In this document: piece by piece, positions 7,639 to 20,054 of the stretch
How the letters are laid out: each line of letters begins with the position of its first letter
How positions within the stretch are numbered: the first letter of the stretch is position 1
Assembly: GCA_947447225.1 (NCBI GenBank)
Contig: CANFJV010000008.1
Span: 1-32,898 of the forward strand
DNA: 32,898 nucleotides
DNA from: Acidimicrobiaceae bacterium
GTDB taxonomy: Bacteria > Actinomycetota > Acidimicrobiia > Acidimicrobiales > RAAP-2
Direction: 5' to 3'
Notes under the pieces: generated by a model
Databases searched by the model: none
Told to the model about the DNA's origin: nothing
The model's input: only the letters and a program-made list of their open reading frames with translations
Translations under genes and position numbers: made by a program

Positions 7639-10600
7639 CTAGGCCGTGCGCACGACCTTCACCGACGATGCTGAACCAATTCCTGCGCTATTGACCGCTC
7701 GAAGTTGCAGGCGATAGGTCTTGTGTCGCAAAAGACCGGTGATCGTGATCTTGGTCGGCGTTCCATAGGACACAAGATTCCACGTCACGCCACGGTCGAG
7801 TGAGTACTGGTAAGCAACAATTGGCGTGCCACCCGTTGACGACGGCGCAGCGTAATTCACGACCACCGACGTCTTCTGGCTGTTCACCGAAATGATCTTT
7901 GGCGAACTCGCTGTGGTCACATAGGTGGCCGAGACTGCCTCGGAACGTGAAGAAGCGCCAGCACTGTTGACCGCCTTGAGCGCCACCGAATAGGTCGACC
8001 CAGCAGTTAGTCCAGTCAAGTGCAGCAGCGATCCCGTCAGGCTCTTAGATGCAACAGCAGCAAAGGTCGCCCCACCGTTCACACTCACGAGATAGGAAGT
8101 CACCGGAGCGCCACCATTGACGGTCGGTGGCACGAATGCCACTTCAAGCCCAGTTGCAATCGACGTCACCGAAGAAATTGTTGGTGCGCCAGAAGTCGTT
8201 GCTGGGACAACCTGCACACTTGGTGAAGCAATGGAAGGTCCCGCAGCGTTCTGGGCATAGGCCCTAAAGACGGAAGCCTGACCATTGGTGAGGCCAGTGA
8301 CCGTGCAGGTCTTTGACGTCGTCTCGCAGAAGTTGACGCCATTGGTCACTCGGTAGGACGTGACCGCTGCGCCATTGGTGTTCTGTGGTGCGTTCCATGA
8401 GAACGTCGCTGCTCCGTCACCTGGCACTGCCACCAAGTTCTGTGGTGCTGTTGGTGGAGCAGATGGGGTGACTTCGTTGCTCGCTGCAGAGGGATTTGAC
8501 GTGCCGAGGGCATTGGTTGCTTTCACGATGAAGAAATAACTCTCGCCATTCCTCAGGCCGCTCACCGTGCACGAAGAAGTTGTTGAGGTGCAGCTTTGCC
8601 CCGCACTACTCGTCACGGTGTAGCTCAGCACCGGGCTGCCATTGTCTGCAGGTGGCATCCAGACAACGAGCGCTTTGCCGTTTTGTGCTTGAGCAATCAC
8701 ACCCGTTGGCCGAGATGGAGGACCTGCAGGCATTGCTTGAACGCTGACTGCAGTTGAAGGACCCGCTGCATTGATGGCGACAACAGCAAACGTGTAGTTC
8801 TGGCCATTGGTGAGGCCGGAGATGCGGCAACTGCCCGCAGCTTGCTTCCAACAGGTGTCGCCAAATCCGTCACTTGCGACGTAACGGGTGACGATTGAAC
8901 CGCCGTTGAATGCGGGAGGTCCAAAGGAGATGACGGCACTGCCATTTCCAGCAACGACCGACACTTGTTGCGGGGCCGTTGGCACACCAATCGGGGTCGC
9001 TCGCACACTGGCGCCAAGCGACGATCCAGCCAGTGAGTTAGCCACGACGTAGAAGGAGTAGGTCTGGCCATTGGTGAGACCAGAGATGGCACACGTGGTT
9101 TGCTCGCCATTTGGCGTGTCACACGACGAACCATCATTTGCCGACACGGTGTAGGAGGTAACGGGGGTTCCATTGGTTGATGACCCGGTCCAACTCAGCG
9201 TGACTGATCCGTCACCAACAACAGCCGTCAGATTTGTTGGGCTGTTTGGAACTCCCGCGGGAACAACCACCGGCGAAAGCGTCGAGGCATCACTTGTGCC
9301 AACGCCATTGGTTGCTTTGACCGTGAACTGGTAGGGGGCGCCATTGTTGAGTCCGCCAATGGCACACGAGGTCTGTGACGTCTGGCAGAGAACAACTGGT
9401 CCGGCTAGCCCAATACTTGAGACCTTGTAGGAGCTAATGGTTGAGCCATTGTCTGCTCCGGCCTGCCATGAGATCAGCACCGAGTGATTCCCACCAGTGA
9501 CGAAAAGGTCATGAGGAGCTTCGGGCAAGGCTGCGGCCAACACGTCAACCGACGACAGCGACTTCGCCGAGTCTCCTCGACCATTGGTGGCCACCACGTT
9601 GAAGCGATAGGTGTGACCAAGGCTGAGGCCACTGACCGTGCATGAGGTTGACGTGGTCTCACAGTAGTGACCATTTCCGTCACTCACGGTGTAGTGATCC
9701 ACGCTCAGCCCTCTGCCGCTTGACGCGTTGAACTGCACGACAACGGAGCCATTGTCTTGGGCCGTTGCCACCACGCCAGTTGGCGCGGTTGGAACATCAA
9801 CGGCCATGGCATCCGCCGATGCTGAATAGAGCGATGACCCAAACTCATTGTTGGCGAACACTTGAAAACCGAGACCAATCCCGCCATCAAGTTCGGTAAT
9901 GAGGTAATTCGTCGACTCCGTTGTGTAGGACTGCCCATTGGAGACCACCACGGTGTAGTTCTGAATGGGAACGCCGCCTCTGAAGAACGGTGCCGTCCAC
10001 TCAAGGTAGACCTCGTTCTTGCCCCCATATGCGTGGAGGCCAGTTGGTGCGTCCGGCAACGATCCGGTCACGCCAGTCACTGGTGCTGAGCTCTCAGATG
10101 ACAGACCATCGAGGTTGACGCCAACAACGGTCACGGTGTCAATCGCCGAGTTCACCAGGCTTTGGCCAGACAGCACACAGGAGGTTTGATCCGTCATGCA
10201 GGTGTTGCCAAAAGAATCCGTCACGAGATACTTCGAAATCTCTGATCCACCGTTGGTCAAAGACGCACTCCACGACACAAGCAGCGATGAGAGTTTTGGC
10301 GTCACGGTGACACCTTGTGGGGCGGACGGGGTGGCCGAGATCACGACAATATTGGAACTGACCGACAGCGGCGAGGTGCCAACTCCATTGGTCGCTGTCA
10401 CAAAGAAGGCGTCATTTGCTCCGGGCACGAGTTGAGAAATCGTGCACGACAGCGTTTCGGTTGAGCAACTGTTTCCCTGTTCGTCGGTCACGGTGTAGGT
10501 CGTGACGGCACTTCCTTGAGCACTCGCCGCCGACCAGCTAATTGTGGCGCTTCGGTTGCCTGCAACAGCGGTCACATTGAGGGGAGCAAGCGGTGCACCC

Positions 10601-13563
10601 GCTGGTGCCACCGGGTCACTGAGCACACTTGACAGCAAATTGCCCTGATCGTCATAGGCATCAATTTGGATGACTTGTGTCACACCGTTTTTCAGCCACG
10701 AGATCGTGCAGGTGGTCTCTGTTGTCGTGCAGATCGTTCCATCGCCAGAAACGGTGGAGACAAGGTAGGAATCAATTGCGCCTTCCGACGAAGGGGTCCA
10801 CGAAACCTGCAACTTCTTTGACTGAGCAACAACTGCAATATTGGCGGCAAACGGCTCAGGAGTGACAAGGCCGGTCGAAAGACTGGCAACCGAGGTGTAA
10901 GCGGAGTTGGTTGCCGTTGCGGTGAAGCCGTAGGCGTCGCCATTGGTGAGACCACTGATGGTGCACGAAAGCGAGTTCGTCGCACCTGAGACCTGGCAGG
11001 TTGCGCCGTTGGTGCCACTTGAAGGATTGGTCACGTCTTGAGCGGTCACGGTGTAGCTCACAACTGGCGAGCCACCATCATCTGCTGGAGCAGAGAACGT
11101 CACTGTGGCTGAAGCATCGCCTGCCGAAGCGTTCAGTTGTTGCGGGGCACTTGGCGGTCCAGCAATGGCCACCTCCTCGCTTGTTCCAGGCGAAGAAGAT
11201 CCCGTCATGGTCGTTCCTGGAATTGAGTAGTCCGCCACCACCGTGAAGGTGTAGTGGTGGCCAGTCAAAAGTCCAGTGACCATGCAGGCGGTCCAAGTCG
11301 GCGAGTAGCCAGGTCCAGCGACACAACCCTGACCGCTCTCAGGTGCACCGGGGTTCGCCAGGTCGTGGGCAAGGACTCGGTAGGCGTAGGTGCTTGCTCC
11401 ACCGGTCATCTCTGATGGAGCGTAGGAGACATAGGCGCTTCCGGTTGGAACCCCATTGGTGGAGGCCACGACCGAAGTTGGAGCACCTGGCGCCATCGCC
11501 ACGTTCACCACGACGATGTTGGAGTCGGCACTCCACGTTGGGCTTGCGACCGTAATTTCTCGGAACGTCCACGATCCGACAGCGAGATTCGTGAATCTCG
11601 CATTTCCAGAAGCGTCGGCGAAGGTGCTGGCATGTGCTCCATTTGGACCATCAGCTCCAACGATGTAACCGGCTAGCGCTTCACCGTGAAGGTTTGGTGG
11701 GGTGAAGTGGACCTGAACGGTTCCTACGCTGTCCGTCAACCACGCCTGAAGGTCAGTGACCGTTGACGGGGTAGAAGTCGGCACCGCAGGTGCACTCGGG
11801 ACACTCGCAACTGAAGTACCCCCAGCGCTCGTGGCAGTAACGGTGAAGGTATAGGTATCGCCATAGGTCAGTTGACTAATAAGACACGCGTACCAATTCG
11901 ATGAAATCCCAGGACCAGCAACGCAGGTGCTTCCATCCGACGGGCTACCAGGGCTTGACTGATCATGTGCAGTGACGGTGTAACTCGTGACGTTTGCGCC
12001 ACCGTTATCTGCCGGTGGTGTAAAGCTCACAAACGCAGAAGCATCATCAATCGAGCCAACAACTTGAACCGTGACATTTGTTGGAGCCTGTGGGGCGCTG
12101 AGCAAAGTGAACGGGGAACTCGCCGCACTTGCGGGGCCCGAACCAAACGCATTGTTTGCAATCACTCTGAAGGTGTAGGTGTGTCCTGTGGTGAGTCCTG
12201 AAACCACGATTGGGCTGGAAAAGCCATCCGTCCCAAACGAAGCAAGTGAACCTGTGTCCGTTGCAATGACGGTGTTGCTCGTCGCCTGGTACGCCGTTGG
12301 TGCAGAACTGTTCGACGATGGCGCATTGAATTGCACATAAGCCGAAGTTCCCGATGCAGTTGCCGATACCTGAGAGGGGGCACCCGGTGTGATGGCGACG
12401 GAATAAACCCGACGGTTCGTGTCGTCAGCGATATAGACCGTTTGATCGGGTCCAACAGCTACCGCGTACAAACTTCCGAAGTAGCACTTTGCCGCTACGC
12501 CACCCAATACGCAGGGCATGGTGTTGCTCGCGCCACCGGCGAACGTCGAGATGTTGCCATTGGGATCAACTCGAGCAATCCGGCCGTTAAGATTGATGTA
12601 GAGGTCGCCAACTGAGTCGAGGGCTAGGCCTCTCGGGGGGTTCAACTTGGACTGTGTCGCAAGAGCACCTTCGGTGATTGCCCCCGAGATGCCGGTTCCA
12701 GCAACCTTTACGAGATAGCCATTCGGCAAAACCTTCACCACTTGGTACGTACCGGCACATGCGATGTACAAGGTGCCTTGCGAATCAAGTGCGAGACCTA
12801 GCGGTGTGGCGAGTTTGGATGAAACTGCAAGACCTTCCGTGGGGCTGCCCGCTACCCCCGTTCCGGTAATGACGCTCAGCATTCCGTTCTTTACTGCTTC
12901 AACCACCTGATTCCCGGTATCGGCGATGTAGATCGTTCCGGTGCTGCTGACCGTAACTGCGGAGGGTCCATTCAAGCCTGCAGTCAACGCAGATGTTGAT
13001 CCTTGCAAGGCACCCGAGCCGACAGCACCAGAGCCGGCAACGGTGAAGATCGTGCCTTGAGGGGTGACAAGGAAGATCCTGTTGAGTGATGAATCGGCGA
13101 TGTAGACGTTGTTGTAGTAGTCGGTTGCTAGCCCCTGAGGCGAGCCCAACGCGACACTAACGGCCGAGTATCCGTTAGAAGGAGCCGAGAAGCCACCACC
13201 AGCAACGACGGAGATCTGGCCATTTGGTGAGACTTTCTCCACCATTGCTCGACTGACATCGGAGATGTACACGTTGCCGAGTGAGTCACTCGCAAGCCCT
13301 CTCAACGACCCGAGTGATGCCGAAGTGGCTGTCCCGCTTGGGCCAGCAGAAGCGTCCCAATACGAGCCATTGCCAGCGAAGGTCGTGAGATAACCAGGAG
13401 TTTGGACATCGGTTGCCGCTCCAGCCGGAGAAGGCGCCGAGAGTGCCACTCCACTGAGGGCAAGAAACCCTGCGAGGACTCCCCCGAAAACGTGACGAAG
13501 ACGCACTTTGAGAGATACCGCTTGGCCTCCCTTTCCATCATTGACTTGAACAGTGGTGAGCAT
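7639..13563 (-). CDS. Giant secreted protein: NHL beta-propeller plus ~17 fibronectin type III repeats
   Basis: About 1974 residues. The N-terminus has a Sec signal peptide (basic KVRLRHVF, a hydrophobic run, then APSPAGA before ATD). Next come about six NHL-type blades (residues ~60-390), each with a GLA.D..GN.YI.D pattern and a V.AG.G ending, forming a likely six-bladed propeller. The rest is about 17 fibronectin III domains of 85-100 residues joined by SAP/TAP linkers. Most domains carry two cysteines, usually 7 or more residues apart, suggesting one disulfide each. No LPXTG sorting motif is visible at the C-terminus (KVVRTA). I take the ATG at 13563; a GTG at 13581 is possible. The likely role is surface or extracellular adhesion or polysaccharide contact. 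It is divergent from two TetR genes. Confidence 0.9.
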   Translation of the reverse strand: MLTTVQVNDGKGGQAVSLKVRLRHVFGGVLAGFLALSGVALSAPSPAGAATDVQTPGYLTTFAGNGSYWDASAGPSGTATSASLGSLRGLASDSLGNVYISDVSRAMVEKVSPNGQISVVAGGGFSAPSNGYSAVSVALGSPQGLATDYYNNVYIADSSLNRIFLVTPQGTIFTVAGSGAVGSGALQGSTSALTAGLNGPSAVTVSSTGTIYIADTGNQVVEAVKNGMLSVITGTGVAGSPTEGLAVSSKLATPLGLALDSQGTLYIACAGTYQVVKVLPNGYLVKVAGTGISGAITEGALATQSKLNPPRGLALDSVGDLYINLNGRIARVDPNGNISTFAGGASNTMPCVLGGVAAKCYFGSLYAVAVGPDQTVYIADDTNRRVYSVAITPGAPSQVSATASGTSAYVQFNAPSSNSSAPTAYQATSNTVIATDTGSLASFGTDGFSSPIVVSGLTTGHTYTFRVIANNAFGSGPASAASSPFTLLSAPQAPTNVTVQVVGSIDDASAFVSFTPPADNGGANVTSYTVTAHDQSSPGSPSDGSTCVAGPGISSNWYACLISQLTYGDTYTFTVTATSAGGTSVASVPSAPAVPTSTPSTVTDLQAWLTDSVGTVQVHFTPPNLHGEALAGYIVGADGPNGAHASTFADASGNARFTNLAVGSWTFREITVASPTWSADSNIVVVNVAMAPGAPTSVVASTNGVPTGSAYVSYAPSEMTGGASTYAYRVLAHDLANPGAPESGQGCVAGPGYSPTWTACMVTGLLTGHHYTFTVVADYSIPGTTMTGSSSPGTSEEVAIAGPPSAPQQLNASAGDASATVTFSAPADDGGSPVVSYTVTAQDVTNPSSGTNGATCQVSGATNSLSCTISGLTNGDAYGFTATATNSAYTSVASLSTGLVTPEPFAANIAVVAQSKKLQVSWTPSSEGAIDSYLVSTVSGDGTICTTTETTCTISWLKNGVTQVIQIDAYDDQGNLLSSVLSDPVAPAGAPLAPLNVTAVAGNRSATISWSAASAQGSAVTTYTVTDEQGNSCSTETLSCTISQLVPGANDAFFVTATNGVGTSPLSVSSNIVVISATPSAPQGVTVTPKLSSLLVSWSASLTNGGSEISKYLVTDSFGNTCMTDQTSCVLSGQSLVNSAIDTVTVVGVNLDGLSSESSAPVTGVTGSLPDAPTGLHAYGGKNEVYLEWTAPFFRGGVPIQNYTVVVSNGQSYTTESTNYLITELDGGIGLGFQVFANNEFGSSLYSASADAMAVDVPTAPTGVVATAQDNGSVVVQFNASSGRGLSVDHYTVSDGNGHYCETTSTSCTVSGLSLGHTYRFNVVATNGRGDSAKSLSSVDVLAAALPEAPHDLFVTGGNHSVLISWQAGADNGSTISSYKVSSIGLAGPVVLCQTSQTSCAIGGLNNGAPYQFTVKATNGVGTSDASTLSPVVVPAGVPNSPTNLTAVVGDGSVTLSWTGSSTNGTPVTSYTVSANDGSSCDTPNGEQTTCAISGLTNGQTYSFYVVANSLAGSSLGASVRATPIGVPTAPQQVSVVAGNGSAVISFGPPAFNGGSIVTRYVASDGFGDTCWKQAAGSCRISGLTNGQNYTFAVVAINAAGPSTAVSVQAMPAGPPSRPTGVIAQAQNGKALVVWMPPADNGSPVLSYTVTSSAGQSCTSTTSSCTVSGLRNGESYFFIVKATNALGTSNPSAASNEVTPSAPPTAPQNLVAVPGDGAATFSWNAPQNTNGAAVTSYRVTNGVNFCETTSKTCTVTGLTNGQASVFRAYAQNAAGPSIASPSVQVVPATTSGAPTISSVTSIATGLEVAFVPPTVNGGAPVTSYLVSVNGGATFAAVASKSLTGSLLHLTGLTAGSTYSVALKAVNSAGASSRSEAVSATYVTTASSPKIISVNSQKTSVVVNYAAPSSTGGTPIVAYQYSLDRGVTWNLVSYGTPTKITITGLLRHKTYRLQLRAVNSAGIGSASSVKVVRTA

Positions 13564-15979: not shown

Positions 15980-16207
15980 GTCAAGAAGCTCCACGGCGAT
16001 CTCCAGCGGATCGCCCTACGAAAGCTCGCGGTCTTAGATGCAGCAGAAGTGCTTGAAGACCTTCGAGTGCCTCCGGGGAACCGACTCGAGAAGCTCGGCG
16101 GTGACCGAGCCGGTCAGTACAGCATCAGAATCAATGACCAATGGAGGATCTGCTTTCGATGGACGAAGGCGGGACCCGAAGAGGTCGCGATCACGGACTA
16201 CCACTGA
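15980..16207 (+). pseudogene. higB: higB toxin, N-terminally broken
   Basis: The last 75 residues of a HigB/RelE-type mRNA endonuclease are intact, including [33 protein letters not shown] and the ending ITDYH. The frame is open back to the nucleotidyltransferase stop at 15892, but it contains no ATG, GTG or TTG before a GTG deep inside the domain, and the first ~17 residues expected for the family are not recognisable. A frameshift or deletion near 15980 is likely. The stop is 11 nt before higA, the usual toxin-first order of higBA. Confidence 0.8.
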
Positions 16208-16218
16208 GAGGAAAAGCG

Positions 16219-16515
16219 ATGACGATCACGATGCCCCCAATCCACCCTGGCGAGGTCTTGATGGCCGACTTTCTTGAGCCCCTTGGGGTGACCCAGCACC
16301 ACGTGGCCATCTCGATTGGTGTCCCACCGCGCCGTATCAATGAAATCGTTCACGGTAAGCGTCGGGTGAGCGCAAATACGGCACTGCGCTTGTCGAAGTA
16401 CTTCGGGACAAGCGAGCGCTTCTGGATCAACCTTCAGGCTCGATACGACCTTGAAATCGAAAAGGATCAGCTCGGTCCAGTCCTCGATACCATCACGCCG
16501 CTCGCGGTGGCGTAG
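16219..16515 (+). CDS. higA: HigA-family antitoxin (XRE)
   Basis: A 98-residue DNA-binding antitoxin. It starts at the ATG at 16219 after an AGAGGAAAA ribosome-binding site. Family features are MPPIHPGEVLMADFLEPLG, the helix-turn-helix around VAISIGVPPRRINEIVHGKR, then TALRLSKYFGTSERFW and NLQARYDLE. Full length and all motifs are present, so it should still fold and repress, although its toxin partner is broken. It may act as an orphan antitoxin or regulator. The in-frame start at 16141 lies within higB and is rejected. Confidence 0.92.
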   Translation: MTITMPPIHPGEVLMADFLEPLGVTQHHVAISIGVPPRRINEIVHGKRRVSANTALRLSKYFGTSERFWINLQARYDLEIEKDQLGPVLDTITPLAVA

Positions 16516-17097: not shown

Positions 17098-17358
17098 CTA
17101 TGGCGCGTAGTGAAAGCGTGCTTGGAGGATTACCAAGTCCTCGCCATCAACCAAGTAGACCAAACGGTGCTCTTCGTCGATGCGCCGGGACCAGCAACCC
17201 GCCAAAATGTGGCGCAGAGGCTCAGGTTTGCCGATTCCTTCAAACGGCTCACGGAGTGATTCCTCTATCAATCGGTTGATTCTCTTGAGCGTTGCCCGGT
17301 CCCTCGCAAGCCAAAACCGGTAATCATCCCAGCCGTTGGGAGTAAAAACCAGCCTCAC
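17098..17358 (-). CDS. yoeB: YoeB-family mRNA interferase toxin
   Basis: An 86-residue ribosome-dependent endoribonuclease of the Txe/YoeB family. Key residues fall at the same numbers as I recall for the E. coli enzyme: Glu46 (in GKPEPLRH), Arg65 (in EEHRLVY), His83 and Tyr84 near the C-terminus. The family core PFEGIGKPEPLRH and WSRRIDEEHRLVYLV is complete, so the toxin looks active. Its GTG start overlaps the antitoxin stop by 4 nt (GTGA), giving translational coupling, with antitoxin first. It is a compact intact pair inside a patch with much decay. Confidence 0.95.
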   Translation of the reverse strand: MRLVFTPNGWDDYRFWLARDRATLKRINRLIEESLREPFEGIGKPEPLRHILAGCWSRRIDEEHRLVYLVDGEDLVILQARFHYAP

Positions 17359-17600
17359 AATTCAAGCGAGTGTTGCAGTCGTTCCCCAGTTTGCGCTTGG
17401 TGGAGGCTTTCGATGAGACGGGTGGCGTTAGCTGGCGATCGTAAAAGCCATGCCGTCTCCGTCAGAGCGTCGTAGTCAGCTCGCGACATCAGCACTGCAT
17501 CCCCTCGACGCGAGGTGATTTCAACGGGCTGCCGATCATTATTGACCTGTTCAATGAGGGGGAAAAGGTTCTTCCTAGCTTCACTCGCTGTTATCGTCAT
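17355..17600 (-). CDS. yefM: YefM/Phd-family antitoxin
   Basis: An 81-residue antitoxin. The N-terminal DNA-binding and dimerisation part is typical (MTITASEARKNLFPLIEQVN, then VEITSRRGDAVLMSRADYDAL); the C-terminal tail should wrap the toxin. An excellent TAAGGAG ribosome-binding site lies 5 nt before the ATG. The pair is expected to repress its own promoter as a complex with YoeB. Confidence 0.95.
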   Translation of the reverse strand: MTITASEARKNLFPLIEQVNNDRQPVEITSRRGDAVLMSRADYDALTETAWLLRSPANATRLIESLHQAQTGERLQHSLEL

Positions 17601-19574: not shown

Positions 19575-20054
19575 GTGGCCAATTCAACGACGTCGTTTCA
19601 TGAATGGTCGGTTGGCCAAGTAGCAGCGAGAACGGGGGTCTCAGTCTCCGCGCTCCACTTCTATGAGCGAGAAGGTCTGATCTCGAGTTGGCGAAATGAC
19701 GCCAATCAGCGCCGCTTTGGCCGTGAGGTACTTCGCCGCATTGCCTTTATTCGTGCGGCACAACGGGTCGGGATTTCGCTCGAAGAGATCCGGACGGCAC
19801 TCGACAATCTGCCGAAGCAGCGAACGCCACGAGAAGACGATTGGGAAGCGTTGTCGGCGACCTGGCGAGATCGACTCGATGTCCAAATCGACCAGCTCCT
19901 CCGGTTGCGAGAGGACCTCACCAATTGCATTGGCTGTGGTTGCCTGTCGTTCAAGCGATGCTTGCTCATCAACCCCGCCGACCATATGGCCAAAGAAGGC
20001 CCGGGGCCACGGCGCTTTCTTCCAGGCACGCCACGACCCGAGCCGGACCAATGA
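19575..20054 (+). CDS. soxR: Redox-sensing activator SoxR (MerR family, [2Fe-2S])
   Basis: A 159-residue MerR-family regulator. The N-terminal winged helix is SVGQVAARTGVSVSALHFYE then REGLISSWRNDANQRRFGRE. The long helix follows, and near residue 118 is CIGCGCLSFKRC, the CxxCxCxxxxxC set that holds the [2Fe-2S] cluster of SoxR. On cluster oxidation by redox-cycling drugs the bound protein activates. The target is visible next door: the SoxR box between this gene and the divergent YciI-like/PPOX operon. The GTG start at 19575 is supported by a leaderless -10; an ATG at 19571 is out of frame. Its TGA overlaps the next gene's ATG. Confidence 0.95.
   Translation: MANSTTSFHEWSVGQVAARTGVSVSALHFYEREGLISSWRNDANQRRFGREVLRRIAFIRAAQRVGISLEEIRTALDNLPKQRTPREDDWEALSATWRDRLDVQIDQLLRLREDLTNCIGCGCLSFKRCLLINPADHMAKEGPGPRRFLPGTPRPEPDQ

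Follow-up and report, generated by a model that had tools for sequence, protein, structure and literature searches.

Organisation of the FN3 repeat proteins

The window analysed here is a stretch of 32,898 nucleotides from an Acidimicrobiaceae bacterium (contig CANFJV010000008.1). On its minus strand, as are all of the features of the two proteins described below, lies the gene for P0002 (7639..13581). This protein of 1980 aa is predicted to be secreted, having a likely signal peptide (by eye), followed by an NHL beta-propeller and 17 FN3 domains. The Pfam matches are to fn3 (7.9e-122) and TEN_NHL (2.2e-21), and the repeats are tandem copies that belong to PF00041 with a match above the Pfam cut-off. 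When P0002 was compared with a collection of genome contigs, the single match was a distant NHL one from Clostridia. The NHL propeller (12397..13404) contains cysteines at residues 275, 357 and 366. This odd number contrasts with the FN3 part, where all of the further cysteines are paired, with one pair per domain.

A total of 12 of the 17 FN3 domains contain exactly two cysteines, five (1, 3, 9, 16 and 17) contain none and no domain contains one. The pairs are at residues 553/566 in FN3-2 (11884..11925), 753/766 in FN3-4 (11284..11325), 862/873 in FN3-5 (10963..10998), 951/958 in FN3-6 (10708..10731), 1039/1046 in FN3-7 (10444..10467), 1128/1135 in FN3-8 (10177..10200), 1307/1314 in FN3-10 (9640..9663), 1399/1406 in FN3-11 (9364..9387), 1487/1497 in FN3-12 (9091..9123), 1577/1585 in FN3-13 (8827..8853), 1664/1671 in FN3-14 (8569..8592) and 1752/1759 in FN3-15 (8305..8328). 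In 7 of these 12 pairs the second cysteine comes 7 residues after the first, which agrees with the preliminary description of two cysteines in most repeats, often seven residues apart. Of the domains without cysteines, FN3-1 is at 12112..12387 and the divergent FN3-3 is at 11497..11772, with boundaries set by eye. Complete agreement of this kind would have a probability of 1/6188 for two sites occupied independently of each other, each in 12 of the 17 domains. The second giant protein, P0001 (27987..32897), has its N-terminus past the end of the window and contains 16 FN3 domains, all of which have the pair.

An orthologue of P0002 in the related genome G001 is 88% identical, covering residues 1368-1714 only. 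In this orthologue (L206, G001:C29:1-2500) the frame is broken after FN3-14 and a C-terminal part resembling FN3-17 is found in another frame.

Cysteines are present or absent in pairs

An FN3 HMM was made from the window repeats with every cysteine masked, all fetched loci were searched with it, and duplicates were removed. The resulting set contains 848 non-redundant domains from the same genome, the family, the order, the class, the phylum and three Pseudomonadota plasmid loci, and covers dozens of related genomes. In this genome there are 69 FN3 domains, of which 60 have both cysteines, none has a single one and nine have neither (Fisher p = 1.8e-11). Across the 848 domains, both sites are occupied in 500, only the first in 22, only the second in one and neither in 325. 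The 23 singles compare with 406 expected under independence (Fisher 2.8e-207), a value calculated from domains that are non-independent through repeat duplication, for which the tree described below corrects partly, with weak support from domains of 85 residues.

When all cysteines in a domain are counted, there are none in 305, one in 5, two in 534 and four in 4. The number is therefore odd in only 5 of the 848 domains and even in 99.4%, because nearly all of the positional singles have a second cysteine elsewhere. Independent variation of the two cysteines, named in the preliminary description as evidence against a functional pair, is not what the alignment contains; the sites vary together. 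A third cysteine is almost never present in a paired domain. Both states can occur in one protein, with 26 proteins containing paired as well as unpaired FN3 domains.

The number of residues between the paired cysteines is 4-17, mostly 6-9. Counted from the tryptophan of strand B, the usual arrangement is W-X(22-32)-C-X(6-14)-C, with both cysteines after the tryptophan. For most of the 23 positional singles the partner is at another place in the domain, as CxxC, as a pair from strand C to strand F or as some other doublet. In L049, one cysteine is near strand C and its partner is on F, and other doublets are found in the FN3 domains of L122 and L134. The single pair of a domain can thus be placed in several ways. 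Two adjoining FN3 domains in each of L083, L088, L095 and L099 have a CxxC in the C' region and do not have the C'-E pair.

Position of the pair in the FN3 fold

Structures were predicted with AlphaFold2 for domain 14, using 82 related domains, and for domains 8-10, using 56 three-domain stretches. The mean pLDDT was 97.5 and 94.1, respectively. The model is a seven-strand beta-sandwich with the topology A-B-C-C'-E-F-G, and it is matched by Foldseek to FN3 domains of titin, contactin and chitinase A1 (TM up to 0.88). In the modelled domains 8, 10 and 14, one cysteine of the pair is the second residue of the fourth strand, C', and the other is likewise second in the fifth strand, E. By this strand mapping, the two cysteines are at facing positions of neighbouring strands. 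In domain 9, Tyr1219 and Tyr1226 are placed at the same C' and E positions as the cysteines of its neighbours, and the hairpin is equal in length to those of the paired neighbours.

Domain 9 and the C-terminal repeats

The ninth FN3 domain (QSYTTESTNYLI) has tyrosine at both of the exactly aligned cysteine sites (9904..9927), each encoded by TAC, at 9925-9927 and 9904-9906, as originally noted. A tree was made from 493 FN3 domains of this genome and the family, with cysteines masked. Domain 9 groups with the paired domains 12 and 15 (support 0.83-0.84), domain 12 of P0002 being the nearest, in a clade in which 14 domains are paired and 2 unpaired. On this tree the pair state changes approximately 24 times, against 51 times with shuffled labels. 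Only one domain in the tree has an odd number of cysteines, its lone cysteine being at another site, so there is no genuine half-pair.

Because domain 9 nests among paired domains in a tree from which cysteines were masked, the joint loss of both cysteines, as first proposed, is supported. It is not proven, given the level of branch support and an orthologue of domain 9 that was found in none of 100 family genomes, where the next matches are 39-44% identical. It is possible that the loss involved two TGC to TAC transitions. Both TGC and TGT serve as cysteine codons in the paired domains, with TGC-TGC in 29 of the 60 in this genome. The alternative, that domain 9 is an old unpaired repeat that never held a pair, would gain from the lack of an orthologue to polarise the change and from the fact that repeats without cysteines can persist between species, as seen for the C45 protein and the one corresponding to it in G004 (L011/L031). 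It is considered unlikely, however, as the domain sits in the tree among 14 paired domains and has a hairpin as long as those of its paired neighbours in the protein.

The two tyrosines might themselves be a selected aromatic substitute for the disulfide rather than a by-product of its loss. Their structurally equivalent positions in the model, and a similar tyrosine pair in one order-level domain (L121), would fit with this. Yet 39 of the 247 domains without cysteines have tyrosine at the second site, and the second tyrosine of domain 9 is therefore ordinary, while Tyr-Tyr occurs in just 2-3 of the 247. Selection for the tyrosine pair is accordingly judged quite unlikely, and Tyr-Tyr as a recurrent swap for the cysteine pair was rejected at this frequency.

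The absence of the pair from repeats 16 (7927..8163) and 17 (7663..7905) was correctly described, both being free of cysteines, as are domains 1 and 3, making 5 of 17 unpaired when domain 9 is included. Repeat 17 belongs to a YxYS..G..W subtype, here YQYSLDRGVTW, of which all six members found are free of cysteines, and domain 16 (SYLVSVNGGATF) is similar to it by eye. For these reasons, repeats 16 and 17 are better read, from their sequences, as a separate subtype than as losses of the pair.

A probable disulfide in each paired repeat

The preliminary description took the pair to act as a disulfide. This is sustained by the 5 odd counts among 848 domains, by the location of the pair on adjacent strands, C' and E, in models of high confidence, and by the presence in this genome of genes for oxidative folding, VKOR (3e-24) and DsbA (2.4e-42). 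In mycobacteria, exported proteins are oxidised by DsbA-VKOR (PMC12421883). It is thus very probable that each paired repeat has one intradomain C'-E disulfide, although the bond is deduced rather than observed. It would link these two strands at the second residue of each and would be made after export via the DsbA/VKOR pathway. Such a staple would lie at the sandwich edge, at the crossing from C', of the sheet C-C'-F-G, to E, of the sheet A-B-E, and may make the tandem repeats of these giant surface or secreted proteins more resistant to unfolding and proteolysis. A free thiol could be worse than none, in which case both cysteines would tend to be gained or lost together. The stabilising effect need not be large, as reduction of comparable disulfides in human IFNGR2 lowers the melting temperature by only about 1 C (PMC5013595).

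Two other accounts of the pairing have to be considered. The pair may simply have been copied with the repeats as they duplicated, the cysteines being inherited together without functional coupling. The repeats are indeed paralogous, those of P0001 are nearly uniform, and the pair state clusters on the tree, with less than half as many changes as with shuffled labels. However, copying does not account for some 24 changes of state from which no half-pair has survived, nor for the alternative pairs elsewhere in the fold that preserve an even number of cysteines, nor for the 26 proteins with a mixture of paired and unpaired domains, and it is very improbable as an explanation. Alternatively, the cysteines may bind metal or serve as redox-active thiols, a role of which two spatially close cysteines are capable and which the CxxC domains of the four relatives L083, L088, L095 and L099 would suit. 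The usual pair is not a CxxC, though, and the near absence of a third cysteine also speaks against this role. A spacing that ranges from 4 to 17 would be expected of a bond that closes a loop, not of a metal or redox motif of fixed form, and this role is scarcely credible.

Relation to known FN3 domains and distribution

The paired FN3 repeats are a modest variation on a well-known domain. In fold and profile they are like the classic FN3 domains (PF00041) of fibronectin, titin, contactin and Bacillus chitinase A1 (1K85). Classic FN3 domains are not known to have a C'-E disulfide. The pair is not conserved in the top PDB sequence alignments to FN3 domains, and the PDB sequence-search alignments inspected contained no recognisable solved structure of a bacterial FN3 domain with the pair. 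The earlier statement that ordinary FN3 domains lack such a disulfide thus stands for the classic domains, but not for the D1 domain of class I and II cytokine receptors, which has an FN3 fold with a cysteine pair after the strand-B tryptophan at a spacing similar to that of the bacterial pair. The D1 bond likewise joins C' and E. The class I D1 motif is C-X(9-10)-CXW-X(26-32)-C-X(10-15)-C (PMC1963337), and in the class II receptor IFNGR2 the pair is Cys86-Cys94 (PMC5013595). The class I receptors differ from the bacterial FN3 domains in having a further cysteine pair around the tryptophan and WSXWS in D2; that first pair, C-X(9-10)-CXW, is absent from the bacterial paired domains, which have exactly two cysteines, both after the tryptophan. 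The receptors are also animal proteins with one D1, whereas here 16-17 domains are arrayed in tandem. It is unlikely that the two pairs share a common origin, and convergence is the better guess.

The same pair before the GLTNG turn is found in 3 of 3 domains of choice-of-anchor/IPTL-CTERM proteins of the Comamonadaceae, on plasmids of Acidovorax and Diaphorobacter. These differ in coming from Gram-negative bacteria and in having few repeats. No description of paired bacterial FN3 repeats was found in a literature search with little reach into subscription journals. In the family sample, which was gathered mostly via the Cys-less domain 9, 89% of FN3 domains are paired, compared with 11% among those sampled from the order outside the family and 5% among those from the class outside the order; the phylum sample, having been chosen with a Cys-rich alignment, is biased toward paired domains. 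Among loci chosen by PF00041, the paired share is 18 of 194 at the order level, 1 of 61 at the class level and 58 of 67 in this genome.

A related NHL protein from the same genus, L201 (G004:C25:500-5500), contains about eight repeats of 53 residues (SVSCTSASFCVAGGYY), each with a cysteine pair 6 apart, as well as Ig-like domains (SVCTVTSGTVNYIGVGTCTL) in which the spacing of the pair is 15. Here, one cysteine pair per repeat is thus also seen in repeat types other than FN3.

It may be, although we hold this only tentatively, that in this lineage nearly all of the tandem repeats at the surface have come to contain one disulfide each, in FN3 domains and, in a related species, in Ig-like and 53-residue repeats, through paired gain and loss and with several alternative staple positions within one fold. 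The cysteine pair is a two-residue feature that switches state without visible intermediates. The hundreds of FN3 domains with or without a C'-E staple are a natural series in which the effects of single disulfides on the stability of repeat proteins could be tested, and this series would be useful for scaffold design. The paired FN3 proteins would also suggest that DsbA/VKOR probably has a large class of clients among the exported proteins.

Other ORFs in the window were assessed by eye. Adjoining small ORFs at 17098-17600 and 16141-16515 are like a YefM/YoeB toxin-antitoxin pair, with a HigA-like ORF nearby. The ORF at 19575-20054 is MerR-like and contains CIGCGCLSFKRC, which is similar to the iron-sulfur motif of SoxR.
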